Below, piece by piece: positions 1 through 54,924 of a DNA stretch of 64,000 bases (position 1 is the stretch's first letter; each line of letters opens with the position of its first letter). The stretch is from NCBI RefSeq assembly GCF_000814025.1, contig NZ_JWLL01000010.1, positions 1 to 64,000 of the forward strand, written 5' to 3'. The position numbers and the translations under genes were made by a program. The notes under the pieces were generated by a model. The model was not told where the DNA came from. It was given only the letters and a program-made list of their open reading frames with translations, and made no database searches. The DNA comes from Tateyamaria sp. ANG-S1. GTDB taxonomy: Bacteria; Pseudomonadota; Alphaproteobacteria; Rhodobacterales; Rhodobacteraceae.

Positions 1-813
1 AACGGACTTGTCCCCGCGGGGACAACCCGAAAATCCGGCGGCGCAGGTGCGGGTCAAAAACGCACCTCCAACCGCCGCGGCCGCCCCTTGCCCGCGCGCC
101 CCGGACGGCTCGACGGCACGTCTCGCATCGACCTCATCTCAACCCTCCGCGCCGCCGCCCCCTGGCAGCCCCTGCGGCGCCAACAGCAACCCAACCGCAC
201 GAGCCTCCTCATCCGCCCCTCCGACATCCGACTCAAACGCTACGCGGAGCAATCCGACCGCCTGCTGATCTTCGCCGTAGACGCCTCCGGCTCCGCCGCC
301 ATGTCCCGCCTGAACGAAGCCAAAGGCGCCATCGAACTCCTCCTCGCCGACGCCTACGCCAGCCGCGATCACGTCGCCCTCATCGCCTTCCGCGGCAGCG
401 AAGCCGAAACCCTCTTGCCCCCCACCCGCTCGCTCGTGCAGACCAAACGCCGCCTTTCCGCCTTACCCGGCGGGGGCGGCACACCGCTCGCCTCGGGCCT
501 GCAACACGCCCTGCTCCTCGCCCAGCAAAGCGGCACTAAAGGGCTCACACCAACGATCATCCTGATCACCGACGGGCGTAGCAACATCGCCCTCGACGGC
601 AGCGCCAACCGCGCCCAAGCGGCTGAGGACGCCACCGCCATGGGCACCGCGATCCGGGCCTCCGGCACAGCCGCTTTGGTCATCGACATGTCTAACCGCC
701 CACAACGCGCGCTGCAGGATCTCAGCCGCGCTCTGAATGCCCCTTACGTCCCCTTGCCACGTGCCGATGCGCAGCGTCTCAGTGGCGCTGTGACGTCGGC
801 TCTGGATGGCTAA
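1..813 (+). CDS. bchD: Magnesium chelatase subunit D, 3' part (5' truncated by window)
   Basis: This is the C-terminal 270 residues of the D subunit of Mg-chelatase, which works with BchI and BchH to insert Mg2+ into protoporphyrin IX. The frame is open from base 1, so the start lies outside the window. The visible part has a basic, low-complexity linker followed by a von Willebrand A (integrin I) domain with a MIDAS motif (FAVDASGSAAMS) near window positions 271-306. The stop TAA is at 811-813 and bchO starts 3 nt later, so the two are probably co-transcribed. The linker holds one exact copy of the replicon palindrome (9-24), read in frame as V-P-A-G-T. The identity is firm; the missing AAA+ half cannot be checked. 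Confidence 0.95.
   Translation, partial: NGLVPAGTTRKSGGAGAGQKRTSNRRGRPLPARPGRLDGTSRIDLISTLRAAAPWQPLRRQQQPNRTSLLIRPSDIRLKRYAEQSDRLLIFAVDASGSAAMSRLNEAKGAIELLLADAYASRDHVALIAFRGSEAETLLPPTRSLVQTKRRLSALPGGGGTPLASGLQHALLLAQQSGTKGLTPTIILITDGRSNIALDGSANRAQAAEDATAMGTAIRASGTAALVIDMSNRPQRALQDLSRALNAPYVPLPRADAQRLSGAVTSALDG
9..24. repeat. Replicon palindrome copy 1, inside bchD
   Basis: Exact 16-bp palindrome TGTCCCCGCGGGGACA, extended to 18 bp by flanking T and A. It lies in the linker-coding part of bchD. Candidate ParB-binding (parS-like) site; the function is inferred from recurrence around parAB. Confidence 0.75.
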
Positions 814-816
814 AAC

Positions 817-1683
817 ATGGACTGGGCGCAGATCGACACCTGGCCAAACGCCCACCTGTCCCGGCGGGGACAAGGGCCGGTTCACCGCTGGCATATCCAG
901 GAAGCGGGACGAGGCGAAACCTTGCTGTTGCTCCATGGCGCAGGCGCCTCATCGCACAGCTACCGCGACGTGATCCCCCAACTTGCGAAAAACTTCCACG
1001 TGGTGGCCCTCGACCTCCCCGGCCACGGCTTCACCCAACTGGGCGCGCGGCATCGCTGTGGCTTGGACACCATGGCACAGGACATCGCCAAACTGTGCGT
1101 GCATGAAGGATGGAACCCCGCCGCGATCATCGGCCATTCGGCAGGCGGCGCGGTGTCGCTAAGACTCGCCGAAAACGATCTGTCCCCGCGGGGACAAGCA
1201 CCTGTCGTCATCGGAATCAACGCTGCTTTGGAACCGTTCAAGGGGCTCGCCGGGATGATGTTCCCAGCGATGGCGAAGGCTCTAGCCTCGGTGCCATTTA
1301 CTGCTGCGCTTTTCTCTGGCACGTCTTCAAAACCGGACCGGATCCGGGCGCTGATTAGCGCGTCGGGTTCCCAACTGGACACCGAGGGTCTGGACCTGTA
1401 CCGCCGTCTTGTAGCCGATCGAAACCACGTCGACGGCACGCTTTTAATGATGGCGCAATGGCAGTTGAACCCGCTGCTTAAGAGGCTGGGAGATCATCCG
1501 TCGCGGATGCACTTCATCATTGGGGACAGGGACAAGACGGTGCGCCCGGATGTGTCCGTCAAAGCTGCTGCGCTATTACACAGCGCGCAGGTGCATCAAC
1601 TGCCGGGTCTGGGGCATCTAGCGCATGAAGAGCAACCGGCAGAAACCGCCGCGCTGATCCGAGATATTCTGCAGAGAGAATAG
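817..1683 (+). CDS. bchO: Alpha/beta hydrolase BchO (Mg-chelatase accessory)
   Basis: This 288-residue alpha/beta hydrolase is the conserved third gene of bchIDO operons and is regarded as an accessory protein for the Mg-chelatase step; its substrate is not established. A nucleophile elbow G-H-S-A-G-G is present, as are an HGAGASS oxyanion-hole segment near residue 40 and a C-terminal GLGHLAHEE with the catalytic His. It starts 3 nt after the bchD stop. Two replicon palindromes lie inside the reading frame: a one-mismatch copy at 857-872 and an exact copy at 1181-1196, translated L-S-R/P-R-G-Q. The gene is the last photosynthesis gene before the partition genes, which point the other way. Confidence 0.93.
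   Translation: MDWAQIDTWPNAHLSRRGQGPVHRWHIQEAGRGETLLLLHGAGASSHSYRDVIPQLAKNFHVVALDLPGHGFTQLGARHRCGLDTMAQDIAKLCVHEGWNPAAIIGHSAGGAVSLRLAENDLSPRGQAPVVIGINAALEPFKGLAGMMFPAMAKALASVPFTAALFSGTSSKPDRIRALISASGSQLDTEGLDLYRRLVADRNHVDGTLLMMAQWQLNPLLKRLGDHPSRMHFIIGDRDKTVRPDVSVKAAALLHSAQVHQLPGLGHLAHEEQPAETAALIRDILQRE
857..872. repeat. Replicon palindrome, degenerate copy inside bchO
   Basis: Matches the 16-bp palindrome at 15 of 16 positions (G for C at position 7). It is within bchO codons about 14-19. Confidence 0.55.
1181..1196. repeat. Replicon palindrome copy 2, inside bchO
   Basis: Exact copy of TGTCCCCGCGGGGACA in the bchO reading frame. Confidence 0.75.
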
Positions 1684-1697
1684 TGTGAAAGATGGTT

Positions 1698-1713
1698 TGT
1701 CCCCGCGGGGACA
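1698..1713. repeat. Replicon palindrome copy 3, between bchO and parB
   Basis: Exact copy of the palindrome in the 39-bp gap between the convergent stops of bchO (1683) and parB (1723). It could also form a short stem in either transcript. Confidence 0.75.
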
Positions 1714-1722
1714 GACCAGAAT

Positions 1723-2772
1723 TCAGAGGTCGAGTTGGTCCAGCAAGGCACGCACGGCAGCTTCGAGCTTGCGCGGATCGACAGCGCCGAAGTCGCGGTT
1801 CATTTGAAGTTCGATCTTACCCTTCGAGCCGATGACCTTCGCCGCGCCGGACTTGCGATTGAGCTTGATGGTGGTCTTGGAGGACGTAGAGGGAGCGGCC
1901 TGTTCGCTGACAGGCTTGGGAGCGACGACCTTGTTCAGGACGGCAAGCTCGGCGACCGCATCGTTGGGCTTTTGGTGCTCAAGTAGGGCGCTCAGATGTT
2001 GGGCCGCGCGGGGTTGATCTTCGAGCGTCTTGACGAGCTTCAGGCCGAGGGCGCGAGGGATCGCTTCGGGGTATTGGAGCAGATGGCCCAGTTTGTCCAT
2101 TAAGAGACTGAAACTGCCTATGTAGTGACGCTTTTGCCGTCCAGCAGAGGCGAAGAGAACGGCGATGGCGTCATTCACTTCGAGGTCCATCTGGCGGGCG
2201 TAACTGGCGGCGAGTTGGCCCATTTCCGCAAAGGAGATGTCACGGCGGACCATGTTTTCGTCGACCATGCGGCGGTAGAGTTTTTCGAGAGCTTCACCCT
2301 TGGCGACCAGAACGGCGGGGATGGTCGCGTAGCGCTCGTCTCCGGTTTCCTTGAACAGGGACTTGTAGGCACTGAGGCGGCGGAAGCCTTGGATGAGTTC
2401 GTAGCCGTCGCCGGTGTCTTCGACCTGGATCGGGTTCGACAGGCCGAGGTCGCGGATCGAGGTCTTGAGTTCTTCGAGGTCCGGGTCGCGGGTGGTGCTG
2501 CGATCGCGGGTGAGTTTGCGCATGGCCACGTCCCCGAGGGGAACGCGGGCAACGATGGCACCATCCCTTTTTAGAGACACATATTCGTGCGCGAGCCGGT
2601 CGTTTTCGGCGCGGATTTCCGCCTCGGCAGACTGGCGTTCGGTGAGCGCGTCGGCGTTTTCCGAGATGGCGGCGGCCATAGGGCCTCGTCGCGTTTGCTC
2701 CTCGGCTGGGGCAGGGGCTTCGCTGGTTTCTTCGGGCTCGAAATTGATGTCGAATACGCGGCGCTTGCTCAT
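1723..2772 (-). CDS. parB: Plasmid partition protein ParB/RepB-like
   Basis: This 349-residue ParB-family protein is the predicted centromere-binding partner of the ParA encoded immediately upstream. Residues about 75-185 form the ParB/Srx N-terminal domain, with DLEELKTSIRDLGLSNPIQV and an ELIQGFRRLSAYK box. A helix-turn-helix region follows (RRDISFAEMGQLAASYA), then a low-complexity linker and a C-terminal dimerisation-like segment. Its ATG overlaps the parA stop by 4 nt (ATGA), so the two are translationally coupled. The likely targets are the 16-bp palindromes scattered over 1-4210. A degenerate palindrome (2529-2544) lies inside the gene. It belongs to the plasmid RepB/ParB type rather than the chromosomal ParB type. 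Confidence 0.9.
   Translation of the reverse strand: MSKRRVFDINFEPEETSEAPAPAEEQTRRGPMAAAISENADALTERQSAEAEIRAENDRLAHEYVSLKRDGAIVARVPLGDVAMRKLTRDRSTTRDPDLEELKTSIRDLGLSNPIQVEDTGDGYELIQGFRRLSAYKSLFKETGDERYATIPAVLVAKGEALEKLYRRMVDENMVRRDISFAEMGQLAASYARQMDLEVNDAIAVLFASAGRQKRHYIGSFSLLMDKLGHLLQYPEAIPRALGLKLVKTLEDQPRAAQHLSALLEHQKPNDAVAELAVLNKVVAPKPVSEQAAPSTSSKTTIKLNRKSGAAKVIGSKGKIELQMNRDFGAVDPRKLEAAVRALLDQLDL
2529..2544. repeat. Replicon palindrome, strongly degenerate copy inside parB
   Basis: The core GTCCCCGAGGGGAAC resembles the palindrome with several mismatches. It may be a decayed site or chance. Confidence 0.3.
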
Positions 2773-4073
2773 GCCTCATCCTCCAGTTTGTCCCAGGCCT
2801 CGCCCAGATTTGTTTTGAATTCTTCGTAAGCCCGGTCGAAGGACGCGCGGGCGCGGCGCCAGGTTTCACGGGTCATATCTCGGTAATCTATTTCGTAGAT
2901 GCTGCTGAGGAATCGCCCGGATTGTTCGACGGCCCGGGTCATTTCGATGGGGTGTTCGCACACGCGGTCGCCGAAGACTTTTTGGAAGGCGCCCTGCATG
3001 GCGCGGTGCAGGTCATTGCCCGGCTCGAACCGGGTGAGCAGGAAGCGGAGGTCGAGGAAGGACTTGGGAAGCGTCATTGTCCCCGCGGGGACAAGTCCGT
3101 TGAAGCGGCTGAGGTCTTCGAGCGCTTCGGAGAGTTGGCCGATGAAGGACGTGGTCGAGTCGTATTCCCAATAACCGGGGCCGGAGGGGATGTAGAGCAC
3201 GTCGGCGGCAAAGACGGCGTTCATGGACTGGTAGCCGATGGCGGGCGGGCAGTCGAAGAGGATCAGGTCGTAGGTGTCGGGCGCGATCTGGTCAAGGAAG
3301 CGCGAGACGGCGGCGAAGAAGGACCATTCGGGGTTGATGTGCCGGTATTGGGCCGAGGCGAATTCGACAAAGGCGGCATTGGCGCAGCTGGGCACGATGT
3401 CGATGGTGGGCCAGTTCGTGGGCTTGATGAAGTCGCTGGCGCGCAGGTCATTGAGGCCCATGTCGGTGATCGCGGCGGGCAGTTTGCGTTGGGGCAGGGC
3501 GGTGCCGGATTCAGCACCCCGCAGGGCGGAGTTCATACGGTCGGTTTCATGCCCTAGATCGCGGGCCATGATGCCCCAGACGGTGTATTCCTCGGCCACG
3601 TCGGAAAGGCCCATGGAGTGGCTGAGCGTGGCCTGCGGGTCGAAGTCGACGCAGAGGACGCGGTAGCCGTCGAGGGCGGCGGCGTGGGCGAAGTGGAGGG
3701 CGGTGGTGGATTTGCCTGCGCCCCCTTTGAAATTGGCGATGGCGGCGCGGATCGCGCGCTTGTTTGCCGGGCGGTAGGGCATCAGGGACTTGCGGTTCAC
3801 CTTGATGCGGCGGCGCAGCTCGTTGATCTCTTCGAGGGAGTACCAGCGTTGGCGGCCGTCTTCTTCGACCGTGCCCTGGGGCAGGGAAGGATCGGCGGCG
3901 AGGCGGCCGCGCAGGGTGCTTTGGTTGGCTTTGAAGATGAGTTCCGCCACCTCCCAGCTTGAGAAGCGACGGAGCGTCTTTTCGCTTTCGGGGGAGTAGG
4001 TTTGCTGGCGGATGAAGGCCTGCATCTTGAGGGATTGCGCCTGAAGCTGGGCGAGGTCTGTGTGCGTGAACAT
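2769..4073 (-). CDS. parA: Plasmid partition ATPase ParA/RepA-like
   Basis: This 434-residue ParA-type ATPase segregates the plasmid together with ParB. An N-terminal winged-helix/MerR-like region (SSWEVAELIFKANQSTLRGRL, then a WYSLEEINELRRR segment) precedes a deviant Walker A motif, FKGGAGKSTTALHFA, near residue 116. Walker A' (LCVDFDPQATLS) and a D-C-P-P motif (ILFDCPPAIGY) follow. I chose the ATG at 4071-4073. An upstream in-frame ATG at 4143-4145 would add 24 residues, but its codons run through two palindromes (4089-4104 and 4116-4131), which look more like an operator region than protein. One exact palindrome (3078-3093) lies in the gene. The replicase on the other side of the gap is divergent. 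Confidence 0.9.
   Translation of the reverse strand: MFTHTDLAQLQAQSLKMQAFIRQQTYSPESEKTLRRFSSWEVAELIFKANQSTLRGRLAADPSLPQGTVEEDGRQRWYSLEEINELRRRIKVNRKSLMPYRPANKRAIRAAIANFKGGAGKSTTALHFAHAAALDGYRVLCVDFDPQATLSHSMGLSDVAEEYTVWGIMARDLGHETDRMNSALRGAESGTALPQRKLPAAITDMGLNDLRASDFIKPTNWPTIDIVPSCANAAFVEFASAQYRHINPEWSFFAAVSRFLDQIAPDTYDLILFDCPPAIGYQSMNAVFAADVLYIPSGPGYWEYDSTTSFIGQLSEALEDLSRFNGLVPAGTMTLPKSFLDLRFLLTRFEPGNDLHRAMQGAFQKVFGDRVCEHPIEMTRAVEQSGRFLSSIYEIDYRDMTRETWRRARASFDRAYEEFKTNLGEAWDKLEDEA
3078..3093. repeat. Replicon palindrome copy 4, inside parA
   Basis: Exact TGTCCCCGCGGGGACA within parA, read as V-P-A-G-T on the minus strand. Confidence 0.75.
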
Positions 4074-4088
4074 GCGCTGCCTGTGGTT

Positions 4089-4104
4089 TGTCCCCGCGGG
4101 GACA
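4089..4104. repeat. Replicon palindrome copy 5, upstream of parA
   Basis: Exact copy just upstream of the preferred parA start; candidate operator or centromere unit. Confidence 0.78.
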
Positions 4105-4115
4105 GTTGGTGTTTT

Positions 4116-4131
4116 TGTCCCCGCGGGGACG
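4116..4131. repeat. Replicon palindrome copy 6, upstream of parA
   Basis: One-mismatch copy (last base G). Its centre lies 27 bp from copy 5, so the two form a closely spaced pair. Confidence 0.72.
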
Positions 4132-4193
4132 TTAATTCTGCTCATTTCCAGATTTACGCTGATTTTGCGGAAAAAGCAAAAGCGGATTAATGT

Positions 4194-4209
4194 TGTCCCC
4201 GCGGGGACA
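4194..4209. repeat. Replicon palindrome copy 7, in the parA-replicase gap
   Basis: Exact copy in the divergent intergenic region, preceded by an A/T-rich stretch (about 4158-4193). Confidence 0.78.
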
Positions 4210-4518
4210 GATCAGGGTCAGTGGGCGCGATCAGACGTGAATGGTTGTGATTCTGTGAACGCGGTGTGCGTTGAGGCATAGGCCCAGATTTAGGGGGACA
4301 GTTTTTCCGACACCCCCATCTATTGGGTGACAGAACTGCCGAAATAGGGGACACACAAGCTGTCCCCCAATACCATATCTACCTGCTTTTCTTTTGATTT
4401 GGGTTTGGGTCTGGCAGGTTATCCACATCTACCCTTGACAGAATCGCGGCTTGGGACGCAAATCGGGGGCAGAGACGAAAAAGCGGCCAGAACCGCACAA
4501 AACAACCGTCGGCAGGTG
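4210..4518. other. Candidate plasmid origin (oriV) and replicase promoter region
   Basis: No convincing gene lies between the palindrome at 4194-4209 and the replicase. The segment contains a perfect DnaA box (4419-4427), several GGGGGACA-like units (4293-4300, a related TTGGGTGACA at 4323-4332, AGGGGACA at 4346-4353) and the inverse TGTCCCCC at 4361-4368, resembling small iterons. A T-rich run follows at about 4386-4400. A TTGACA hexamer at 4435-4440 could be the -35 of the replicase promoter; no good -10 is seen. Origin function is inferred from these signals and from the position next to the initiator gene. Confidence 0.5.
4419..4427 (+). promoter_or_regulatory. DnaA box
   Basis: TTATCCACA, the strict DnaA-box consensus, 92 bp upstream of the replicase ATG. 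A single perfect box is compatible with a DnaA-assisted origin. Confidence 0.6.
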
Positions 4519-5244
4519 ATGTTCGGACTTCCGGACAGTTTCGAGAAAATGAGGGCAGGGATGCAAACGCTGAGGCCGGTGGGCCGGGGCGCGTCTGCGC
4601 GCAAATACGATATTTTGACAGCCTTGGGTGCGTTCGCTCTGGCGCAGGGCAAGCATGAGCAGCGGCGGGTGCTGCGCCTGATAACGCTGATCACAGCGCG
4701 CTACAATTGGGCGCGGGACGAGCTGGCCGTGGGGCAGCGCGAGATTGCGCGGCTGTGGTCGGTGGATGAACGGACTGTGAAGCGGGAGATGGCGCTGCTG
4801 CGGGCGCGGGGTTGGCTTGTGGTTAAGCGGCAGGGTGCGCGAGGGCGTGTGTCCGAGCATGGGTTGGACCTGGAACGGGTGCTAATCGATACGGAGGCGT
4901 ATTGGGCAGCTGTGGGGCCGGATTTCGAGTTGCGCATGGGGGCCAGTGAGGCGGAGGCGCCGAAGGTCGTGCCTTTGCCAGTGAAGGGGGCTGTTGTCGC
5001 GCCGGATGTGTCCGAGGGGACGGAGTGGGCTTTGGCTCAGGCGATTTTGCATGCTGAGGATGCGGGGATCTATGCGTCTTGGTTGGCTGGGCTGGAGCGC
5101 GTGGAGCGGGCAGGGGGGCGGTTGACGTTGAAGGCGCCGTCGCGGTTTCACGGGGCCTATGTGCAGACGCATCTGGAGCGGCGGGTGCTGGCGGCGTGCC
5201 GTGAGGTAGATGGGGATGTGACCGAGGTGCGGATTGTTGTGTGA
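4519..5244 (+). CDS. DnaA-like plasmid replicase (wHTH plus DnaA N-terminal-like domain)
   Basis: This 241-residue protein is the predicted replication initiator. The first half (about residues 25-120) looks like a winged helix: KYDILTALGAFALAQGKHEQ, then REIARLWSVDERTVKREMALL and a wing-like GWLVVKRQGARGR. The last ~70 residues resemble the N-terminal domain of DnaA (W..L.......G.L.L.AP..FH..YV), and there is no AAA+ ATPase. This layout matches the DnaA-like replicases of Rhodobacterales plasmids. I chose the ATG at 4519; an in-frame TTG at 4399 would run through the DnaA box and is unlikely. It is divergent from parAB, the usual arrangement for this replicon class. Confidence 0.82.
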   Translation: MFGLPDSFEKMRAGMQTLRPVGRGASARKYDILTALGAFALAQGKHEQRRVLRLITLITARYNWARDELAVGQREIARLWSVDERTVKREMALLRARGWLVVKRQGARGRVSEHGLDLERVLIDTEAYWAAVGPDFELRMGASEAEAPKVVPLPVKGAVVAPDVSEGTEWALAQAILHAEDAGIYASWLAGLERVERAGGRLTLKAPSRFHGAYVQTHLERRVLAACREVDGDVTEVRIVV

Positions 5245-5249
5245 GCGCC

Positions 5250-5277
5250 GGTGCGCAGTGAATGCGCACCCTACGGG
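5250..5277. repeat. 28-bp repeat, copy 1 (hairpin GGTGCGCA/TGCGCACC)
   Basis: An 8-bp stem GGTGCGCA with loop GTGAA and TGCGCACC, followed by CTACGGG. The same 28 bases recur in the same orientation at 6375-6402. The TAG stop codon of the YdcF-like gene (5271-5273, minus strand) lies within the repeat. Confidence 0.85.
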
Positions 5278-5906
5278 TCGGTGGGCAGGTGGTCGGTGAA
5301 ACCGGCCTCGACCAGCAGATCGAAGGCGTCCTGGACGGTGTGGGGCAGCGGCACGGCGATTTGAAAGCCGCGGGCGGCGTAGGTGGGCATGCGTGCGATG
5401 TCGGCGACCATTTCGCAGATGAGCGCGCGTGCGTCGTGATGCGTAAGGGGCTGGTCATCGAAAGAGGTGGCCGGGGCAGTGACCAGTGGTTTGATGCCCG
5501 ACCATTGACCGAGGGCCGTGGCCTGGCAGCGGCGTTGGGTCTGGGGTTTTGTGACAAGGATGACCTGTTTCGCGTCCGGCAGGCGGGCGGCGGAGAGGCG
5601 CATGTTTTCGCCGATATTGGTCGCGTGCGGCTCGAGCGTGATGGCGTTTGGGGGGACGCCGTTTTGGATGGCGTGGTCTTTGAACGCTTCGGCTTCGGTG
5701 GTCTGGAACATGTCGCGCGTCCAATTGCCTGACGCGCCGGTGAAGAGGATGCGGGGGGCGAGGCCCCGGTGGTAGAGGTCGGCGCAGTGGCTGGCCACGC
5801 GCAGGTCATAGGAGCCGAGGCCGACGATGGCGTCGGAGGGGCTGAGGTCATCGTAGACGCAGTGAAACTGCCAAAGCGTCAGGGCTGCGTCGCGTGTGTC
5901 GGTCAT
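5271..5906 (-). CDS. YdcF/SanA-like DUF218 family protein
   Basis: This 211-residue protein of the YdcF/ElyC/SanA superfamily (DUF218) is soluble, with no signal peptide or membrane segment. Seen motifs are IVGLGSYDLRVASHCADLY, a small-residue turn ILFTGASGN, and ITLEPHATNIGENMRLS, which matches the family E..A.NT.EN box. The biochemical role of the family is poorly defined. I chose the ATG at 5906 because a GGAGAG ribosome-binding site lies 7 nt upstream and the codon overlaps the stop of the VOC gene (ATGA). The two form a small operon bracketed by the 28-bp repeats. Confidence 0.8.
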   Translation of the reverse strand: MTDTRDAALTLWQFHCVYDDLSPSDAIVGLGSYDLRVASHCADLYHRGLAPRILFTGASGNWTRDMFQTTEAEAFKDHAIQNGVPPNAITLEPHATNIGENMRLSAARLPDAKQVILVTKPQTQRRCQATALGQWSGIKPLVTAPATSFDDQPLTHHDARALICEMVADIARMPTYAARGFQIAVPLPHTVQDAFDLLVEAGFTDHLPTDP

Positions 5907-6271
5907 TGTGGCTCTCCGATTTCGAGGATGTGCCTGTCGGGATCGAAGAGGCGAAAGACGCGCTGGCCCCAGGGTTCGCACCGGATGGGGTGGATCAGAT
6001 CGACCTGGGGTGCGATCCGGGTGAAGGCGGCGTCGAGGTCCACCTCTTCGAAGTAAAGCACGAGGTTTTCGCGTCCGTAGGGCGGTGCGCTGGTGTCGTC
6101 CGTGCCGAAGGTCGTTCGAAAGAGCGATGCGCCGTCGTGGAGCGCGAAGCCGCCGGTGAAGGTGACGAAATTGCCGTGGTCTTCGGTGATCGAGAGGCCC
6201 AGGATCGTGGTGTAGAATGCCTTGGACCGGTTGATGTCGGTCACGAAGGGGAGGGGGTTCACAAATCGCAT
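5903..6271 (-). CDS. VOC (glyoxalase/bleomycin-resistance) superfamily protein
   Basis: This 122-residue single-domain vicinal-oxygen-chelate protein has the beta-alpha-beta-beta-beta fold signature: FVTDINRSKAFYTTILGLSI near the N-terminus and FRLFDPDRHILEIGEP at the C-terminus. The terminal E is a typical metal ligand position. The substrate is unknown; relatives are lactoylglutathione lyases, dioxygenases and resistance proteins. Its stop overlaps the start of the YdcF-like gene by 4 nt. Confidence 0.82.
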   Translation of the reverse strand: MRFVNPLPFVTDINRSKAFYTTILGLSITEDHGNFVTFTGGFALHDGASLFRTTFGTDDTSAPPYGRENLVLYFEEVDLDAAFTRIAPQVDLIHPIRCEPWGQRVFRLFDPDRHILEIGEPQ

Positions 6272-6374
6272 GGGTTTAGGACATCACAGATTTTAGTCGA
6301 TGTCTTGGTGTGGGTGGCCCTCCGGTGGCGGTTTTAGAGCGGTTTGGTTGAGTGCCGGATTTTCGCTTGGGGTT

Positions 6375-6402
6375 GGTGCGCAGTGAATGCGCACCCTACG
6401 GG
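6375..6402. repeat. 28-bp repeat, copy 2
   Basis: Identical, in the same orientation, to 5250-5277. The two copies are 1125 bp apart and enclose exactly the VOC and YdcF-like genes. Confidence 0.85.
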
Positions 6403-6449
6403 CTTTGCCAAGATATGTTGGGCCGCGTTTGGATAGGCGCATGTCGGGT

Positions 6450-6505
6450 GGGGGCGCTGCCCCCGGCCTGCGGCCTCCCCCAAGGTATTTTCAGCCAGAA
6501 GAAAG
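6450..6505 (+). repeat. Dispersed GC-rich palindromic element, copy A
   Basis: A GGGGGCGCTGCCCCC-type palindrome, a second GGCCTGCGGCC stem, then a short tail with TATTTTCAGCCAGAAGAAAG. The architecture matches the elements at 21192-21247 (inverted, in bchB) and 22586-22630. It lies directly downstream of the opgG stop. Confidence 0.6.
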
Positions 6506-6517
6506 AGGGGAGGGGCG

Positions 6518-8086
6518 TCAGGTGGGTGCGGTGTTGCGTAGCCATTGGTAGAGCCAGGTTTCTGACAGCCGGGTCGTGCCGTCGGTGATGTGGGCGGTGA
6601 GTTCGATCAGATCGTGATCGCCGCCGTCGATGTCGATGAAGAGCCGCCAGGTGGGCTTTGCCGCGCCCTCGACCTTGTGGAGGACGTGGCCTGCGATCTC
6701 GCCTGCGGAGTGGGTGATGACGGGGATGAGGTCGGTGTCTGGGTCCATGTCGCCCAAAGCGCCACCTTCGAAGTCGATGACGAATTTGCGCAGGTTGGGG
6801 TTTTCGAGCGGCACGCCCGAGGGGCCGCCGACGCCTGCGAGCGTGCCCTGGACCCATGCCAGATCACCGGAGGGGGGCAGGGCGCCCCAATGCATGCGCC
6901 AGGCGTAGGTGCGGCTTGTCCCCGCTTGTGGCGCGTCTTTGGGCACCCAGAAGGCGACGATGTTGTCGTCGATTTCGAGCTCAGCCGGGATTTCGACCAG
7001 ACGGACGGTGCCGGGGCCCCAGTCGTTCAGCGGCTCGACCATCACCGAGGGGCGGTCGTGGTAGCGCGCGCCTGCGTCGAGGTAATCCTCGTACCGACGA
7101 TCGCGCTGGATCAGGCCGAATTGGGCCATGTTGGGTTCGTTGAAGTACGAGCTTGAGACCCGGTGCGGGTTGTTGAGCGGGCGGAAGAGCGTGTTGCCGT
7201 CCTTGCGGATGATTTGCAGCCCCTCGCTGTCGTGGACCTGGGGGCGGAAGTCGTCGAAATCGCGTTCGGTGTGTTCGGCGAAATAGAACATGGAGGTGAG
7301 CGGGCCGAGCCCCAGTTGCGGAACGCTGTCGCGGAAGAAGAGCGTCGCCTCGACATCCATGGTGGTGTCGTCGCCGGGGGTGATCGTGATCTTGTAGGCC
7401 CCGGTGACGGACGCGCTGTCGAGGGCGGCGTAGAGGGTGAGGGACGTGTCGAGCGCCTGTGGCCGTTCGACCCAGAATGCGGAGAAGCGGGGGAACTCTT
7501 CGGGCCCTTGCAGCCACGTGTTGATGGCAAGGCCGCGGGCCGAGAGGCCGTAGCTGTTGCCGCGCCCAAGCGCGCGGAAGTAGCTGGCGCCGAGGAAGGT
7601 GACGACTTCGTCGAACTTGTCGGGGCGGTTGAGGGGGTGCGTGAGTTTCAGCCCCGCGATGCCCGGCAGTTCCGCATTGTCGGGGACGCGGTCGCCTACA
7701 TCGTTACGGTATTCGAAATCATCCGTGGTGAAGCTGATGGGGGCAGCTTGGCCGTTGTGGACTTCGTGGATCTGGACCGGATCTTTGAACAGCCAGCCAG
7801 GGTGGAAGGGGGAGGCGTGGAAGGGCAGGGTGGTGTCGGACCAGTGCGCTGCGACAGGCCGGAAGTAGATGTTGCGGTAGTCGTCGTAGGTCAGGTTTTG
7901 CAGGAAGCTTTCCAGCGGCGCGGGGGGCGCATCGGGCGACTTGGCGCGGGTTTCCATCGTGGCCTTGAGCCAGTCGAACGAGAACGGTTGCGTGAGGCCT
8001 TGGGCCAGTGCGGTGCGGGGCAGGGCGGCGCTGGCCAGAAGCGTTGCAAGGGCGCTGCGGCGGGTGATGGGGGCGGAGAGGGGCAT
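6518..8086 (-). CDS. opgG: Periplasmic glucan biosynthesis protein OpgG/OpgD-like
   Basis: This 522-residue protein of the MdoG/OpgG family is periplasmic and takes part in branching or trimming of osmoregulated periplasmic glucans. An N-terminal twin-arginine signal is visible (T-R-R-S-A-L-A-T-L, residues 8-16, cleavage near residue 28), which favours Tat export as in OpgD. The mature protein begins FSFDWLKATM..., with the NLTYDDYRNIYFRP motif of the family near residue 70. Length is normal for the family. An AAGGA ribosome-binding site precedes the ATG at 8084-8086. No opgH glucosyltransferase is near, so it is an orphan here. The split between OpgG and OpgD is not resolved from sequence alone. 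Confidence 0.88.
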   Translation of the reverse strand: MPLSAPITRRSALATLLASAALPRTALAQGLTQPFSFDWLKATMETRAKSPDAPPAPLESFLQNLTYDDYRNIYFRPVAAHWSDTTLPFHASPFHPGWLFKDPVQIHEVHNGQAAPISFTTDDFEYRNDVGDRVPDNAELPGIAGLKLTHPLNRPDKFDEVVTFLGASYFRALGRGNSYGLSARGLAINTWLQGPEEFPRFSAFWVERPQALDTSLTLYAALDSASVTGAYKITITPGDDTTMDVEATLFFRDSVPQLGLGPLTSMFYFAEHTERDFDDFRPQVHDSEGLQIIRKDGNTLFRPLNNPHRVSSSYFNEPNMAQFGLIQRDRRYEDYLDAGARYHDRPSVMVEPLNDWGPGTVRLVEIPAELEIDDNIVAFWVPKDAPQAGTSRTYAWRMHWGALPPSGDLAWVQGTLAGVGGPSGVPLENPNLRKFVIDFEGGALGDMDPDTDLIPVITHSAGEIAGHVLHKVEGAAKPTWRLFIDIDGGDHDLIELTAHITDGTTRLSETWLYQWLRNTAPT

Positions 8087-8201
8087 GGGCGTCCTTGGGC
8101 GTGCGTGTCAGCCCCAGAGATGCGGGTTCCGTGCGTGTGCGTCCAGTGCCGGGATGTCACTTTTGCGCTGGAATCTTGACATATTGGGGAGTTGTTCAAC
8201 G

Positions 8202-8229
8202 AAAAAGGCCGCCGGAATGTCCGACGGCC
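8202..8229 (-). terminator. Rho-independent terminator after cycA
   Basis: Downstream of the cycA stop on the minus strand there is a 10-bp GC-rich stem with one G-T-type mismatch (8207-8216 with 8220-8229), a 3-nt loop and five T residues. It marks the probable end of the bchF-to-cycA superoperon. Confidence 0.8.
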
Positions 8230-8254
8230 CTGATCGCGTGTGACTGCGAATGGG

Positions 8255-8701
8255 TTAGCTGCCGCTGTCCGCCTGAAGCGAGGCGAGGTAGGCAAAGAGG
8301 TTCACGGCGTCTTCTTCCTTGCGGACCTTGTAGGTCATCTTGGAGCGGCCGTTGTCGCCTGTCAGCTCACGCAGGTAGCCCGTGGGGTCCTGGACGTAGG
8401 CCACGAACACCTCTTCGGTGATGGTGGTGTCGGCGTCTGCGGCCAGTTGGTTGATGTCGGAATAGCGGAAGTCTTCGACCTGGCCGAACTTGCCGCCCAC
8501 AATACCGTATAGGTTCGGGCCGGTGCGGGCGTTGCGGCCTGCCAGCGTGTCGCCTGCTTCGTTTTGGACGACGTGGCACGAGACGCATTGGCGGAATGCC
8601 TTTTCCCCTTCGGCGGGGTCACCGGAGGCGGCGTGGCCGTCGGCGAATGCGGGCACGGCCAGCGTGGCGGTCGCTGCTGCGATGGCAAATGTGCGGAACA
8701 T
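8255..8701 (-). CDS. cycA: Cytochrome c2
   Basis: This 148-residue soluble periplasmic c-type cytochrome has a Sec signal peptide (MFRTFAIAAATATLAVPAFA), one haem-binding C-V-S-C-H motif near residue 40, and a candidate axial Met in GRSKMTYKV near residue 121. Cytochrome c2 carries electrons from the bc1 complex to the photosynthetic reaction centre and to oxidases. It is last in the superoperon, downstream of hemA, the usual order in Rhodobacterales. An AAGGAG site precedes the ATG. The 114-nt gap to hemA holds a 9-bp inverted repeat (8749-8776), so cycA may also have its own promoter. Confidence 0.93.
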   Translation of the reverse strand: MFRTFAIAAATATLAVPAFADGHAASGDPAEGEKAFRQCVSCHVVQNEAGDTLAGRNARTGPNLYGIVGGKFGQVEDFRYSDINQLAADADTTITEEVFVAYVQDPTGYLRELTGDNGRSKMTYKVRKEEDAVNLFAYLASLQADSGS

Positions 8702-8748
8702 GTGGGTCTCCTTCCTGAGTTCTTGGCACAGAACGTAGTGGGTTCGCG

Positions 8749-8776
8749 GTCAAGTCAACAGTAACTTTGACTTGAC
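8749..8776. promoter_or_regulatory. Inverted repeat upstream of cycA (possible operator)
   Basis: Perfect 9-bp arms GTCAAGTCA and TGACTTGAC are separated by 10 nt, 48 nt upstream of the cycA ATG. Minus-strand TTGACT/TTGACC hexamers within it could serve as a -35. It is neither an FNR-type nor a PpsR-type sequence. Confidence 0.45.
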
Positions 8777-8815
8777 CTGCATGTCGGCGGGAAATGCTTG
8801 GGTGTTTTCCCCTGT

Positions 8816-10030
8816 TCAGGCAACCGCGTGGGCAATAGCGCACTGTTTCCATAGGTCTTTCAGTGCCGTGACGAGGTGCTCGATATCCTCTGTCGTGTGG
8901 AGCGGTGAGGGGGTGAAGCGCAGCCGTTCGGTGCCTTTGGGCACGGTCGGGTAGTTGATCGGTTGGACGTAGATTCCGTATTGCTGCATCAGGTAATCCG
9001 ACAGCATCCGGCATTTGACCGGGTCCTTGATCATCACGGGGATGATGTGGCTGGGGTTGTCCATGTGCGGGATCCCCTCCTGGTCCAGCCGCTTGCGCAG
9101 GTAGGCGACGCGCTCGCGCTGTTGCATCCGTTCCTGGTCCGACTGTTTGAGGTGCCGGATGGAGGTGCGGGCCGCAGCCGCCACTGCCGGGGGCAGGGCG
9201 GTGGTGAAGATGAAGCCGGAGGCGAAGGAGCGGATGAAGTCGCAGAGCGCTTCGGAGCCGGTGACGTAGCCGCCGACGACGCCGTAGGCTTTGCCGAGCG
9301 TCCCTTCGATCAGGGTGATGCGGTCCATCAGACCCAACTCTTCCGCGACGCCGCCGCCGCGGGGGCCATACATTCCGACTGCGTGCACTTCGTCGATATA
9401 GCTCATTGCGCCGTGCTTTTCGCAGACGTCGATGATTTCGGCGATGGGGGCAATGTCGCCGTCCATGGAGTAGACGGATTCAAAGGCCACGATCTTGGGC
9501 GCGTTGGCAGGCAGGGCCGCCAGCTTGCGGTCGAGGTCTTCGGGATCGTTGTGTTTCCAGATGACCTTGGACGCGCGGCTGTGCCGGATGCCTTCGATCA
9601 TGGAGGCATGGTTCAGCTCGTCCGACAGGATCACTGCGTCGGGGAGGCGGGAGCCAAGGGTGGAGAGTGCCGCCCAGTTTGAGACGTAGCCGGAGGTGAA
9701 GAGGAGGGCCGACTCTTTGCCGTGGAGGTCGGCGAGTTCTTGTTCCAGCAGCTTGTGGGCGTGGTTTGTTCCGCTGATGTTGCGCGTGCCGCCTGCACCT
9801 GCGCCGCATTCGTCGATGGTGTCCTTCATCGCCTTGGTCACTGACGGGTGCTGACCCATGCCGAGGTAGTCGTTGGAGCACCAGACCGTCACCTGGTCAG
9901 GGGCGTCGTCGTCATGGCATTTGGCCCGTGGGAAAGCGCCGGATTGGCGTTCCAGTTCGGCGAATATGCGGTAGTTCCCTTCCTCTTTCAGTGCGTCGAG
10001 TTGGGTTTGGAACAAAGCATCAAAGTCCAT
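8816..10030 (-). CDS. hemA: 5-aminolevulinate synthase
   Basis: This 404-residue PLP enzyme condenses glycine and succinyl-CoA to 5-aminolevulinate, the first step of tetrapyrrole synthesis by the Shemin route used in Alphaproteobacteria. The glycine-rich [14 protein letters not shown] segment (residues 76-90) and the PLP-binding Lys in EGTLGKAYG (K247) are present, and the length is normal. The ATG (10028-10030) overlaps the puhE stop by 11 nt and has an AGGGGG ribosome-binding site. Its place in the operon couples precursor supply to bacteriochlorophyll demand. A second, chromosomal copy is possible but cannot be seen here. Confidence 0.96.
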
Positions 10031-16482: not shown

Positions 16483-17417
<935 letters not shown>

Positions 17418-17475
17418 TCATTTCGCAAAGAAAACCGCCGCCGGAGGCTCCTGTCGTATGTGTTTGCGGAACGGA

Positions 17476-36129: not shown

Positions 36130-38238
36130 CTACTGCACTTTCGAAAGCTCGCTGCGACACAAGGCTTCGACGGCCGGGATAGCGTGCCGACGGTCCGGAA
36201 ACCGCGCGGCGATTGCAATATGACGCGCCAGAGATATCCAGCGAAACGAATTCACACGCTGCATGTCCGGCAGCGAGGCAAGGTCGCTGTATCCCTGTAG
36301 GAATGCGTCCTGCAGTGCTGCAAAATGGCTCGGGTCCTCCCCGTGCCTCAATGCAAGCTCGTCCAAATGCGCCAGAAAATTTCCAAGGTCGATTGCGGCG
36401 TCACCTACTGCATACAGATCCAGATCCACGAGCCAGATCGTATCCGGCGTGACCAGGACCTGATCGAAGTAAAAGTCACGGTGTAGGCCAACATGAGGCG
36501 CTCTTGGAAGCCCGTCCAAGCGCGCCTTTGCAAGCGACAACAGATCATCATGGGGACCGCCGGAGAGCGCCTTTTCAAGGACCGCCCATTCATCTGCGTG
36601 GGTCCATTGCCGCGTCGTTTGGACTGGCGTGCCATGAAGTTTCGCCAGCGCACGCCCGGTGCGCCGCATCGCGTCCCGCTTCGCAGGTGCTGAACCATCT
36701 TGCACATCGATAAGTGCATGCCCCGGGACCTGCTCCTGCAACCAGATTGCAGGGTCATCTACCGTGCCCGTGACAGCGGCTACCCCTACTCCGTCACACC
36801 CATCAAGGCCCGCAGCTCGCAGCTTCGACTGAAAGTGTGGCGCGTTTCGATCAGCCCCTTTTGCTCGCAACTTGCCCAACAAGACTTGGCCATCCGGAAG
36901 GACATACTGCACCATCGCGCGGCGCCCGGGCTTCAGCCTTGTGAGCGTGATCGCTTTCGGCTTCTTCCCGAAACCCGTACGCATGTGTTCCGGTTCCAAC
37001 GCCTTGGCCAGACCGGGAATGGTGCCCTTTGTCGCCGGTATCGGTGGGTTTTGACAGATTTCTTCAACCCGACCGAGGACAGAGCGCATCTGTTGGTCCC
37101 AGTCAGCACTGCGGGCACGAAATGCCTCAACGGCCAGAGCAAAAAGTGCGTGTGCGCGATGTGCGGCGATGACCTTGCCCGGCGGAAGTGTTCTGACGGC
37201 CCCGTATCCTTCCAAGAGCGCTGTGCGGGCCTCTCCCGTCTCGAAACCCTCAATTTCGTCCAGATCAAGCCGTGCCAGCGCGCTGCCAAGATCGCGGGCA
37301 GCGGGACCTCTTGCTGCGCGGTCCCAATCCAGGATCACGGTGACGTGCCCGTCGCGTATCACTTGGTCAGCTGAAAAATCACCGTGAAGCGCCACCAGCT
37401 CGGACGCGTCCAACTCAGGCAATTGGCTGGCCAGGCGCTGTGCCTGTGTCTCAAGCTCGGGCATGAGGGTAGAGACCGTCTGGACTGTCTGGTGCAAAGC
37501 GGGCGGCTTCCAGTCGGACAGCTTGTCTTTGGGGCCCATCACGTGGTGTTGCGCGAGCATTGCGCCAGCCAAGTTGAAGTCACGTGGCGCGGATTGCGGT
37601 GACAGGGCGTGACCTGGGGTCCATGCCGTGGCAATGGCCAGATCATCCGGTGCTGTTCCGATCACCGCGGGGCCGCCCATGGCATTTGCATAGACAGCCC
37701 CGGCAAAAGCGCGGTCATACGTGGCCCGATCGGCATGCATCTTGATGACAGCAATGGGCCCATGCGGCCCATCGGCGCGCAATACAATCCTGCGACCGGG
37801 TTTGTACCTGAGGATTCGAAGGGGGTGATTGGCAAGTCCAAGGCGGCTCAGCAATGCCGTCCGGGATGTGTCGTCAGACAACTGGCGCGCCTTCCGCAAG
37901 CGCCGCTCCAAGGCCAGCGGCACAAAAACGGTACAAGCATCGTCGAGATAGACCGCTTTCTGTGGACCATTGTTCCATTTCGGCCGGTTCCGGATTTCGG
38001 GCCAACGCGAACGCGGGTATGTCATCGCGACCCACGCGCCAAGGCTGCCGTCCACAGGAACAAGTCCGGCGACGCAGTTCGTCCTGGGTTTGTAGTTCAG
38101 GTAGCTGTGGCGGAAGTTACCCAGATCGATTGTTCGGGAGACGGACGACGCATTTAAAACCGCGCCAAGACCCGGCAGATCGGTATCCCGCGCGCACAGT
38201 GCTGCATCAGCTGGCACTAGATCACCTGTCGAAGGCAT
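36130..38238 (-). CDS. Tandem APH-type phosphotransferase (two kinase domains)
   Basis: This 702-residue protein has two aminoglycoside-phosphotransferase/choline-kinase-like domains in series. Domain 1 (about 135-400) has an N-lobe RYKPGRRIVL with K166, catalytic HGDFSADQ (H285, D287) and metal-binding DWDRAA (D304). Domain 2 (about 425-702) repeats this with RLKPGRRAMVQY, K456, HRDFYFDQV (H586, D588) and DLDLYAVGD (D605). A third, partial N-lobe-like motif (NYKPRTNCVAGL) lies near residue 48. Both active sites look intact. The start follows an AGGAG site 16 nt after the exporter gene. The substrate is unknown; the context points to a sugar or glycolipid phosphorylated in a glycoconjugate pathway rather than antibiotic resistance. 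Confidence 0.8.
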   Translation of the reverse strand: MPSTGDLVPADAALCARDTDLPGLGAVLNASSVSRTIDLGNFRHSYLNYKPRTNCVAGLVPVDGSLGAWVAMTYPRSRWPEIRNRPKWNNGPQKAVYLDDACTVFVPLALERRLRKARQLSDDTSRTALLSRLGLANHPLRILRYKPGRRIVLRADGPHGPIAVIKMHADRATYDRAFAGAVYANAMGGPAVIGTAPDDLAIATAWTPGHALSPQSAPRDFNLAGAMLAQHHVMGPKDKLSDWKPPALHQTVQTVSTLMPELETQAQRLASQLPELDASELVALHGDFSADQVIRDGHVTVILDWDRAARGPAARDLGSALARLDLDEIEGFETGEARTALLEGYGAVRTLPPGKVIAAHRAHALFALAVEAFRARSADWDQQMRSVLGRVEEICQNPPIPATKGTIPGLAKALEPEHMRTGFGKKPKAITLTRLKPGRRAMVQYVLPDGQVLLGKLRAKGADRNAPHFQSKLRAAGLDGCDGVGVAAVTGTVDDPAIWLQEQVPGHALIDVQDGSAPAKRDAMRRTGRALAKLHGTPVQTTRQWTHADEWAVLEKALSGGPHDDLLSLAKARLDGLPRAPHVGLHRDFYFDQVLVTPDTIWLVDLDLYAVGDAAIDLGNFLAHLDELALRHGEDPSHFAALQDAFLQGYSDLASLPDMQRVNSFRWISLARHIAIAARFPDRRHAIPAVEALCRSELSKVQ

Positions 38239-38254
38239 AATTGGCCGCTCCTGG

Positions 38255-40045
38255 TTAACTTGCTTCAGCCGTCGCGAGCCATCCGCCCGCCGCGCGCAGA
38301 GATGATGCGTTTCCGGTTTCTGCAACGGCGCCGCCGGAAATCGTGGCAATGCGATCACATCGCGCTGCCAGCTCCAGGTCGTGCGTGATCAACAGGGTCG
38401 TACGGCCCTCGGACACTGAATCGATGGCTGCGATCACCGATGCGGCGCTTTCACGGTCCAGCCCGGTGGTTGGCTCGTCCAGGATCAGCACCGGCGTGCG
38501 CCGCAGAAAGGCCCGCGCAAGTGAAAGGCGCTGACGCTGACCGCCCGACAGGGTGGCACCACGCTCGGCAAGATGCGTGTCGTAGCCGTCCGGCAGAGAC
38601 GTGATGAAGTCATGCAAAACCGCACGGCGGGCCGCCTCCTCCAGTTCGTCATCGCTTGCATCTCGATCCAGGCCGAGGGCGAGGTTGTCGCGGATCGTGC
38701 CTGACATGATCAACGGTTCTTGGGGCACGAATGCGACGCTGGCGCGCAGGGATTGAAGCGTGAGGTCGCGGATGTCCATGCCGTCCAGCTTGATCTGGCC
38801 CTTCTCAACGTCGTGAAGACGTAAGGCGAGCGCGGCGAGTGTGGATTTGCCTGCGCCGGACGGCCCGATCACTGCGACGCGCTCTTCTTCATAAACCGTC
38901 AGATCGAGCCCATCGAAAACCTTGGCCCCGTCCTGATGAGCAAAGTGGACGTTCTCGAATGTCAGGCGGCCTTGCAGATCGGCCGGAGCAGGCTGCGCAC
39001 CGGGCCGGTCGCGCACGGCATCGTCCCGGTCGAGCAGGTCAACGACCCGTTCTGCCGCTGCCAACGCCTTGGCCAGCCGTGCGGCGTATTTGGCGTAGCC
39101 GCGAATGGGCCGATAGGTGTGCTTGAGATAGCTGACAAAGATCAGCAGGTCGCCCGGGGTGATCCGCGCGTCGAGCACTTGGAGCGTGCCATAGAACAGC
39201 ACTCCGACCAGGCCGAGACCCGCCAGCACATCGACGGATCGTTCAAGCCCCGCGGTCAGCCGGGCGCCTTTGACACCCTCGCGCATCTCTTTTTCGTTGG
39301 CACCGGAAAAGGCCTTGTTCGTGTGCTCTTCCAGACCGAGCGTCTGCACCGATGCGATCCCGGCCAGCACCTCGGACGAGGTGGAGGCGAGCGCCCCCTG
39401 CCGTTTGCGTTGTGTGCGGCTGACCTTGCGGATGCGCAGGGTCAACAGGCGCGACAGGATCCAGAGCACAGGCAGCGGTGCCAAAGCGACCAGCGCCAAT
39501 CGCCAGTCGAGCCAAAGCATGACGCCGATCATGCCCCCGAAGATCAGCACATTGGCAAGAAGCGGCATCGCGGCGGTGACCAGCGCGTCCTTCAGCATGC
39601 CGACGTCGCTGACCAGCCTGATGGTTAGATCGCCAGTGCGTGATTTGGCATGAAAGCCGATGGAAAGCGATTGAAGATGCCGGAAAAGGTCGGACCGCAC
39701 GCGCGCCAGCATCCGATTGCCGACCCCTGCAAAGACAACCGTTGCAATGTAGTGGAACGCCGCCCGAAGAAGGACAGCAAGCAACAGTCCCCCGGCGCAG
39801 AGCGCGAGTAACAGCATCGGGTCGATCTGCGTGGCCGCCGGAGCCTGCGCGTCCGGCACGGGGACAACAGCGTCAATGACAAATTTCAATGGCCAGGGTT
39901 CGGCCAGACGCATGAGCGTCGACAGGATGAGGGCGCACACCGCGCCACAGAGCGCCAGGATGTGTCCCCGCACATAGGGCCGGAAGCGGCGCAAGACCGC
40001 AATGAGGCCGAGCCCCGTCTGCGCAGGTTCTGCTGGGGTGCTCAT
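38255..40045 (-). CDS. ABC exporter, fused permease and ATPase (lipid/glycan type)
   Basis: A 596-residue half-transporter. Six membrane segments (about 25-320) are followed by an ATPase domain with Walker A GPSGAGKST near residue 393, Q-loop FVPQEP, signature LSGGQRQR near residue 500 and Walker B VLILDEPTTG. This ABCB/MsbA-like layout exports lipids, lipid-linked glycans or peptides and works as a dimer. The ATG overlaps the stop of the GT4 gene upstream. Its place among three glycosyltransferases suggests it moves a glycolipid or glycan across the inner membrane. Confidence 0.88.
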   Translation of the reverse strand: MSTPAEPAQTGLGLIAVLRRFRPYVRGHILALCGAVCALILSTLMRLAEPWPLKFVIDAVVPVPDAQAPAATQIDPMLLLALCAGGLLLAVLLRAAFHYIATVVFAGVGNRMLARVRSDLFRHLQSLSIGFHAKSRTGDLTIRLVSDVGMLKDALVTAAMPLLANVLIFGGMIGVMLWLDWRLALVALAPLPVLWILSRLLTLRIRKVSRTQRKRQGALASTSSEVLAGIASVQTLGLEEHTNKAFSGANEKEMREGVKGARLTAGLERSVDVLAGLGLVGVLFYGTLQVLDARITPGDLLIFVSYLKHTYRPIRGYAKYAARLAKALAAAERVVDLLDRDDAVRDRPGAQPAPADLQGRLTFENVHFAHQDGAKVFDGLDLTVYEEERVAVIGPSGAGKSTLAALALRLHDVEKGQIKLDGMDIRDLTLQSLRASVAFVPQEPLIMSGTIRDNLALGLDRDASDDELEEAARRAVLHDFITSLPDGYDTHLAERGATLSGGQRQRLSLARAFLRRTPVLILDEPTTGLDRESAASVIAAIDSVSEGRTTLLITHDLELAARCDRIATISGGAVAETGNASSLRAAGGWLATAEAS

Positions 40046-42431: not shown

Positions 42432-42461
42432 TGCAGTGATCCTTTCTCCGAGGTTTTGATG

Positions 42462-53688: not shown

Positions 53689-53886
53689 TCACCCTCCCTG
53701 CCGGGGGGCGACGATTTCGATCCGGTCGCCATCATGCAGGGCGTGGCCACTGCGCATGGTCTTGGGCACGAACGCCTCATTCACCGAGGTGGCGACTTTG
53801 GCCTCGCTTTTGCCAAGCTCGACGAGCAGCGCGGCCAGATCAGGCGCGTCGCTGATCACTGTCTCACCGTTCACGATGATCTTCAT
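53689..53886 (-). CDS. thiS: Sulfur carrier protein ThiS
   Basis: A 65-residue ubiquitin-like carrier starting [10 protein letters not shown] and ending in the essential Gly-Gly. ThiF adenylates the terminal Gly and sulfur is added to make the thiocarboxylate used by ThiG. It overlaps the end of thiO by 23 nt and is followed directly by thiG. Confidence 0.95.
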
Positions 53887-54844: not shown

Positions 54845-54924
54845 CTTGATAATCCACCGCGCACTCGCGTCGACCAACCAACAGCGCCAAAATCATCGAC
54901 CAGCAAAACGTGTGCGCGCCGCAT
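54841..54924 (-). CDS. Possible leader peptide ORF upstream of thiO (27 codons)
   Basis: A short ORF starts with ATG at 54922-54924, preceded by AAAGGGGG at a good distance, and encodes MRRAHVLLVDDFGAVGWSTR plus seven more residues. Its TGA overlaps the thiO ATG (ATGA). It lies between the riboswitch and thiO, while thiO itself lacks a strong ribosome-binding site. It may serve translational coupling; I recognise no family. It could also be chance. Confidence 0.4.
   Translation of the reverse strand: MRRAHVLLVDDFGAVGWSTRVRGGLSR

Follow-up and report, generated by a model that had tools for sequence, protein, structure and literature searches.

What holds a plasmid replication and partition module at one place inside a photosynthesis gene cluster? 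The question is raised by contig C2 of the Tateyamaria sp. ANG-S1 genome (139,830 of 4,425,579 bases, 32 contigs), of which we analysed bases 1–64,000, hereafter the window. Here parAB and rep, the gene of a DnaA-like replicase, lie between the photosynthesis genes bchO and cycA. This placement was already published in 2018–2019 and is not new: PMC6052148 and PMC6739100 describe DnaA-like I photosynthesis plasmids of Roseobacteraceae, with the ANG-S1 plasmid among those listed. What the original prediction for this locus overlooked is a palindrome, TGTCCCCGCGGGGACA, by which the module is linked with bchD and bchO. We consider it very probable that this palindrome is parS, the plasmid centromere, and that the segment is the maintenance core of a DnaA-like I plasmid of about 140 kb. 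Our literature search returned no report of TGTCCCCGCGGGGACA or of parS in photosynthesis genes, although the 2011/2012 papers defining DnaA-like plasmids may describe the palindrome. The string 'palindrom' is absent from the main text of PMC6052148 (PMC6739100 was not searched for that word), and the 12-mer CCCCGCGGGGAC was found in the literature only in two unrelated papers, on human and mouse sequences.

The palindrome on contig C2 and inside bchD and bchO

A search for perfect palindromes in photosynthesis and par loci repeatedly yielded one motif, TGTCCCCGCGGGGACA. Contig C2 carries nine copies of it or of its 14-bp core, located in bchD at both contig ends, in bchO, in the bchO–parB gap, in parA, at three places upstream of parA and at one distant place (108,525). 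Eight of the nine form a single cluster of about 4.6 kb across the join of the presumed circle, running from upstream of parA through parA and the parB–bchO gap into bchO and bchD. Since one cluster reaches both photosynthesis genes, the sites within them would be a part of the centromere written into coding sequence. We rejected a chance origin, as the expected number of copies on the contig is only 0.0001 for the 16-mer and 0.002 for the 14-bp core (0.004 for the 16-mer in the genome, a figure taken from the composition of C2) and a reversed control had no match in 295 genomes. The candidate sites in the window are as follows.

8–25: candidate parS TTGTCCCCGCGGGGACAA in bchD, read as LVPAGT, at a bchD position conserved in relatives (nucleotide ~840)
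856–873: imperfect copy CTGTCCCGGCGGGGACAA in bchO, two mismatches
1181–1196: candidate parS in bchO, read as LSPRGQ, at a conserved bchO position (nucleotide ~365)
1698–1713: candidate parS between bchO and parB
3077–3094: candidate parS in parA (VPAGT), at a place shared by most DnaA-like I parA genes examined
4089–4104: candidate parS upstream of parA
4117–4130: candidate parS upstream of parA, 14-bp palindrome
4194–4209: candidate parS upstream of parA

A similar distribution was found on the Tateyamaria omphalii plasmid pDOK1-4-3, with four sites in bchD, one in bchO, two in the bchO–parB gap, one in parA and two upstream of parA. For a wider view we used the best 80 bchI loci of our scan, together with plasmid and family-sample loci. 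Exact sites of either of the two types described below were present in bchD or bchO in 30 of the 33 loci with parB beside bchO (including L172, which has a lone parB), usually at bchD codons ~150 and ~280 and at bchO codon ~122. Within these genes the palindrome occurs in each of the three frames (0, 1 and 2), and it is therefore the DNA that is kept, not a peptide. Where bchD and bchO of par-module loci encode VPAGT, the spelling is GTCCCCGCGGGGAC in 55 of 60 cases, against 0.64 expected from the codon use in the rest of these genes. Within the genus Roseobacter, where 17 of 19 genomes have a bchD match, exact bchD/bchO sites occurred in all 13 with an adjoining ParB match and in none of the four without. 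A Fisher p of 2e-14 (21 of 22 versus 3 of 53 rows) counts a duplicate (L175, equal to L073) and the orphan-parB locus L172 as having no par.

Linkage to DnaA-like I partition loci

We scanned a family sample of 295 genomes for the exact 16-mer TGTCCCCGCGGGGACA and for its reversed control, and found the former in 26 genomes and the latter in none. A Rep match (E<1e-83) was present in 28 genomes, 23 of which carry the 16-mer, compared to three (G063, G222 and G247) of the other 267. The five Rep genomes without it consist of three with a T variant, GTTCCCCGCGGGGAAC, near Rep, one with the 14-bp core in parA and one with CTGTCCCTGCAGGGACAG in parB. The T variant was found in five of the 295 genomes, namely these three, G161, where it lies near a more distant Rep, and G106. 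ParB was searched for in the 26 palindrome-bearing genomes, and all of them carry a member of the window's family, with at least 45% identity to the ParB of the window or of T. omphalii in 24 and 42–43% in G063 and G247. Plasmids without photosynthesis genes have the sites as well, both within parA and parB and outside them, upstream of parA and downstream of parB; in Leisingera methylohalidivorans they form an array.

The site itself varies with the module that it accompanies. Among 47 loci, 38 are C-type, seven T-type and two of another type, and site type needs five changes on the tree. In Cognatishimia MH4019, the T variant appears alike in bchD, bchO, parB and upstream of parA. Clustered palindromes beside parB that vary with ParB lineage resemble a ParABS system, whose protein components, a ParA ATPase and a ParB with the ParB_N fold, are also present here; ParB matches the Spo0J structure 1vz0 at 2.8e-7.

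On a quick tree of the partition genes, the label 'photosynthesis-linked' changes six times, three of these changes being forced by well-supported branches, while the root is unsure because of the long L024 branch. We thus rejected a single origin of photosynthesis-linked modules, the label not being one clade, and conclude that capture or exchange of modules took place on more than one occasion. At the L024 locus (39208; plasmid of Sulfitobacter sp. S190) the module is divergent and a different palindrome, CAGGGTTACCCGCGGGTAACCCTG, lies between parB and bchO; neither main site type is present in bchO or in the part of bchD that was read.

Traces of the sites are also found in photosynthesis clusters that lack the module. 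Leaving aside the duplicates L175 and L283, we assembled 56 near-complete bchD genes from loci with no ParB match, a few of which break off near bchD or bchO; an exact site was present in one of the 56, that of L073. This locus, from an uncultured member of the Rhodobacteraceae without parB, has the two bchD places with one and zero mismatches and the bchO place with two, its exact bchD site being the only exact copy in its genome. Genome G343, which we take to be Roseobacter denitrificans (its BchD is 90% identical to that of Roseobacter litoralis), has its cluster on contig 1 without a ParB match, with two decayed bchD copies (three and two mismatches) at both usual places. In L088 there is one decayed copy with three mismatches at the second bchD place. 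Codon-shuffled bchD genes gave 0.014 near-sites per gene, or about 0.8 at random places over the 56 genes; we observed five, all at the two usual places. Near-sites in bchO without parB were found at the usual place in L073 and at an unrelated place in L045 (three mismatches). Decayed or exact bchD palindromes at the places of the plasmid copies were noted in L270, L073 and L088, whose clusters have no par module.

The clusters of L073, G343 and L088 thus look, from their decayed copies, as if they had formerly resided on a plasmid. According to PMC6052148, the R. denitrificans cluster is nested among plasmid-borne ones, which is given there as evidence of later re-integration into the chromosome. 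The decayed copies in G343 would fit this published model.

The replicon and copies outside the plasmid

Position 1 of the window is an end of contig C2, which was not known when the original prediction was made, and it interrupts bchD. The first 810 bases of the contig encode BchD residues 278–547 and its last 465 bases (139,366–139,830) residues 1–155, which leaves about 122 codons (~0.37 kb) missing between the ends. The same palindrome terminates the contig on both sides. Because the ends face each other within one gene and share this palindrome, C2 reads as a circular photosynthesis plasmid of about 140 kb, a circularity that rests on a split bchD in a draft assembly. The minimum of the cumulative GC skew lies at the join, which fits an origin there, but gene direction influences skew. 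Table 1 of PMC6739100 gives 139.0 kb for the ANG-S1 plasmid (up to 139.8 kb in the text) and 4.43 Mb in 33 contigs for the genome, with which the lengths of C2 and of the present assembly agree. The gene order at the start of the window, with the other end of bchD, is as follows.

1–813, plus strand: bchD, C-terminal part (residues 278–547), VWA domain; the gene crosses the contig ends
C2:139366–139830: bchD, N-terminal part (residues 1–155)
817–1683, plus strand: bchO (TIGR03056, 321.8 bits, above cut-off)
1723–2772, minus strand: parB, 349 amino acids, ParB_N domain, GFRRLSA motif
2769–4073, minus strand: parA (AAA_31/CbiA); open frame to 4145, start set from the match to pDOK1-4-3 ParA
4290–4372: candidate origin, GGGGGACA-type repeats in the parA–rep gap
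4561–5244, plus strand: rep, DnaA-like replicase (DnaA_N, below cut-off); start set by the annotated length in pDOK1-4-3, open frame from 4399
5271–8086, minus strand: DUF218, VOC/glyoxalase and MdoG-like genes between rep and cycA
8255–8701, minus strand: cycA (cytochrome c), start of the puh–bch superoperon side
8816–10030, minus strand: hemA, aminotransferase fold dependent on pyridoxal phosphate; named from its place and from pDOK1-4-3

The original prediction had described parAB and a DnaA-like replicase between bchO and cycA as a plasmid module inside the photosynthesis cluster, with no transposase. These genes are indeed where it placed them, and no transposase was found among the ten proteins scanned over positions 1–10030. 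Its comparison with plasmid-borne clusters is borne out by four closed plasmids. The 77.6-kb pDOK1-4-3 has the same order, bchI-bchD-bchO-parB-parA-rep-...-cycA-hemA, including a glucan biosynthesis protein G gene between rep and cycA, and the order recurs on R. litoralis pRLO149_94 and on the plasmids of Thalassococcus sp. S3 and R. ponti. Rep is 90.1% identical over 86% to that of pDOK1-4-3 and matched 289 plasmid records, all 60 of those listed being from roseobacters. The type I label of the replicon is taken from PMC6052148 and PMC6739100, as our replicase tree held close Rep relatives only. In the relatives, as here, parAB is divergent from rep with the repeat-bearing origin between them; the GGGGGACA-type repeats are common to loci of both parS types (C and T) and probably constitute the origin. 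From the gene content it would follow that losing the replicon means losing phototrophy.

A chromosomal location of C2, or an integrated plasmid, seems highly improbable to us. It is the draft state of the assembly, with a circle deduced from split bchD, that speaks for such a location. Against it, a single gene spans both contig ends, the closed relatives are plasmids, the replicon has been published as one, and the only DnaA match of the genome lies elsewhere, on contig C28. We found no transfer RNA (tRNA) or ribosomal RNA (rRNA) gene on C2; as no 16S rRNA was found in the entire assembly, the rRNA part of the check proposed with the original prediction is void. The same observations uphold the earlier view that this is a plasmid rather than a chromosomal segment.

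Copies of the palindrome are not confined to this replicon. The genome contains 52 exact copies, 44 of them off C2, and among the contigs that hold these, chromosomal status was shown individually for C28 only. Counts were made by genome for 48 named-locus genomes. The copies number 65–73 per genome, plasmid included, in five related Tateyamaria that carry the plasmid, but T. pelophila, with the module, has two; the presence of the plasmid therefore does not force dispersal. Module-bearing genomes of the Roseobacter type have one to six copies, Nereida 14, S. sediminilitoris 10 and Cognatishimia MH4019, with its T variant, none. Tateyamaria without parB beside bchO (L031, L033 and L048) have no copies, nor does G240 of the same genus, which has no Rep match; among genomes whose cluster has no par module, a copy was found in one of 29 (L073).

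We examined 42 of the 44 off-C2 copies; some lie within genes and others between them, and their flanks differ. Since the 42 share no long flank and eight places align across the site to G300, a Tateyamaria without par module, we rejected a long mobile repeat. Seven of these alignments are ungapped over 60 bases (own or T. omphalii row), and the eighth, L143, has two small gaps. As the palindrome there aligns to ordinary G300 sequence, it arose at these eight places by substitution. At other places (among them the ubiB–ubiE pair, L129, L147 and L149), the G300 alignment stops at the site, and there the palindrome may instead have been inserted. At least 14 sites are listed on T. omphalii C1, and for eight of the 14 listed our genome has a site in the corresponding position (P 3e-6 for a control rate of 0.079, a random 16-mer being identical in 7.9% of cases). 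The converse figure, 8/9 own sites kept in T. omphalii, is biased, because most tiles were chosen around listed T. omphalii sites. A palindrome pair between ubiB and ubiE (L168 2411–2463; G000:C28:309911–309959), about 4 kb from dnaA, is kept in T. omphalii with changed flanks; an apparent sharing of this site with G063 and G247 proved wrong, UbiB and UbiE not matching their loci.

In these two other lineages, a ParB of the family outside a DnaA-like I module accompanies 62–79 dispersed sites. G063 has 79 copies, and its parB stands alone next to bchO, 40 of the contig's 47.9 kb giving neither a ParA nor a Rep match; its locus (L172 10750–13433; G063:C17) reads bchD, bchO, a 28-bp palindrome and then parB without parA or rep. 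G247 (C13; L122, L174) has 62 dispersed copies and a parB divergent from a ParA/RepA-like gene, with no DnaA-like Rep match. We regard it as possible, while leaning somewhat to doubt, that in the T. omphalii clade the plasmid ParB binds some 44 or more chromosomal sites that evolved in place within and between host genes. It would then have, besides segregation, a Noc-like function in organising or tethering the chromosome, and host and plasmid would depend on each other. On the same view, the exact or decayed bchD and bchO sites of clusters lacking the module would be fossils that date a former residence on a plasmid.

Several further features of the window and genome were noted. Two stretches of contig C29 are related to hemA (72% and 68% DNA identity). 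A repeat unit at 6446–6509 has about 20 genome copies on several contigs, and further short genome-repeated sequences lie at 5249–5278, 6369–6401 and 17408–17451. Beside the photosynthesis genes is a cluster of glycosyltransferase and ATP-binding cassette transporter genes (36130–43718), followed by a histidine kinase gene (43934–45622). A thiamine pyrophosphate riboswitch (54984–55086, minus strand, 73.1 bits) stands upstream of a minus-strand flavin adenine dinucleotide oxidoreductase gene (53864–54877), and a gene for a TonB-dependent receptor begins on the opposite strand at 55354.

A candidate centromere and its relation to known systems

Under the parS reading, rep and the repeat-bearing origin would start replication, ParA and ParB would segregate the plasmid copies, and ParB would bind TGTCCCCGCGGGGACA in its cluster around parAB and in bchO and bchD. 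We infer both the binding of the sites by ParB and their role in segregation. Several observations weigh against this reading. The palindrome could be an operator. G106 has a single T-variant copy at a contig end (L268 2515, C20) and the 4.7 kb examined there contain no par gene, a lone copy that the parS reading does not explain. Four ParB columns switch with the C/T variant, none of them a clear DNA contact, and in ParA two columns do so; of the four, column 229 differs in all seven T-type rows, but in a loosely aligned stretch, and the other three differ in six of seven. In L024, L100 and L260, which belong to the 33 loci where parB adjoins bchO, neither bchD nor bchO has a site, so that sites in these genes are not required. 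Finally, our counts overstate independence, because the rows are related by descent.

Of the alternatives, an operator function, in which the sites serve ParB or Rep in the control of parAB, bchO and bchD rather than in segregation, would account for the copies in the parA–rep gap and upstream of parA. We nevertheless think it unlikely, since other sites lie deep within bchD, bchO, parA and parB and, in plasmids without photosynthesis genes, also downstream of parB, places atypical for operators. The abundance of copies off the plasmid contig, 44 of 52 and in varied coding and intergenic places, might suggest a dispersed Rhodobacterales repeat that is merely common here and unrelated to partition. 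Such a repeat is very unlikely in view of the 269 family genomes without a copy, the presence of this ParB family in all 26 with one and the empty Tateyamaria genomes L031, L033, L048 and G240; moreover, there is no long flanking unit, and the copies aligned to a module-less Tateyamaria replace bases in place. We give hardly any credence to the idea that VPAGT, LSPRGQ and CPRGD are kept as linker peptides, with the palindrome as a by-product. The two bchD places do read VPAGT in most par-module loci, but the same DNA recurs in all three frames, and the palindrome spelling exceeds by far the 0.64 cases expected.

If the palindrome is parS, part of the centromere in bchO and bchD would provide a physical reason for the module's staying at one place in the cluster, and the photosynthesis cargo would itself belong, physically, to the apparatus that maintains the plasmid. 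Centromere sites that have decayed at fixed codons would in turn offer a sequence test of whether chromosomal photosynthesis clusters once travelled on plasmids. Should it be true that ParB binds the chromosomal sites, a plasmid segregation system would have been caught in the course of becoming chromosome-wide.

In chromosomal ParABS systems, parS (TGTTTCACGTGAAACA) lies near oriC, and some Bacillus subtilis parS sites are inside genes. The palindrome described here is likewise a perfect one of 16 bp that recurs in a cluster near parB, in part inside coding sequence, but its sequence differs, its ParB is plasmid-borne and the genes that host it are photosynthesis cargo. Noc of Bacillus is a ParB relative with Noc-binding sites (NBS) chromosome-wide, a pattern that would match the dozens of palindromes dispersed over the chromosome in the T. 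omphalii clade and in G063 and G247. Unlike Noc, the ParB here keeps a ParA partner, and at 31.2 bits against a TIGR04285 cut-off of 315 it is not of the Noc family. Plasmids of the repABC type have compatibility-type-specific palindromes beside their replication genes (PMC9044938), a similar arrangement in a different replicon type, for which the available part of that paper mentions no dispersal into cargo genes. The closest relatives remain the published DnaA-like I plasmids, pRLO149_94 and pDOK1-4-3, with the same replicase family, the same place between bchO and cycA and the same gene order, to which the present analysis adds the sites in bchD and bchO, their decayed copies and the chromosomal spread.

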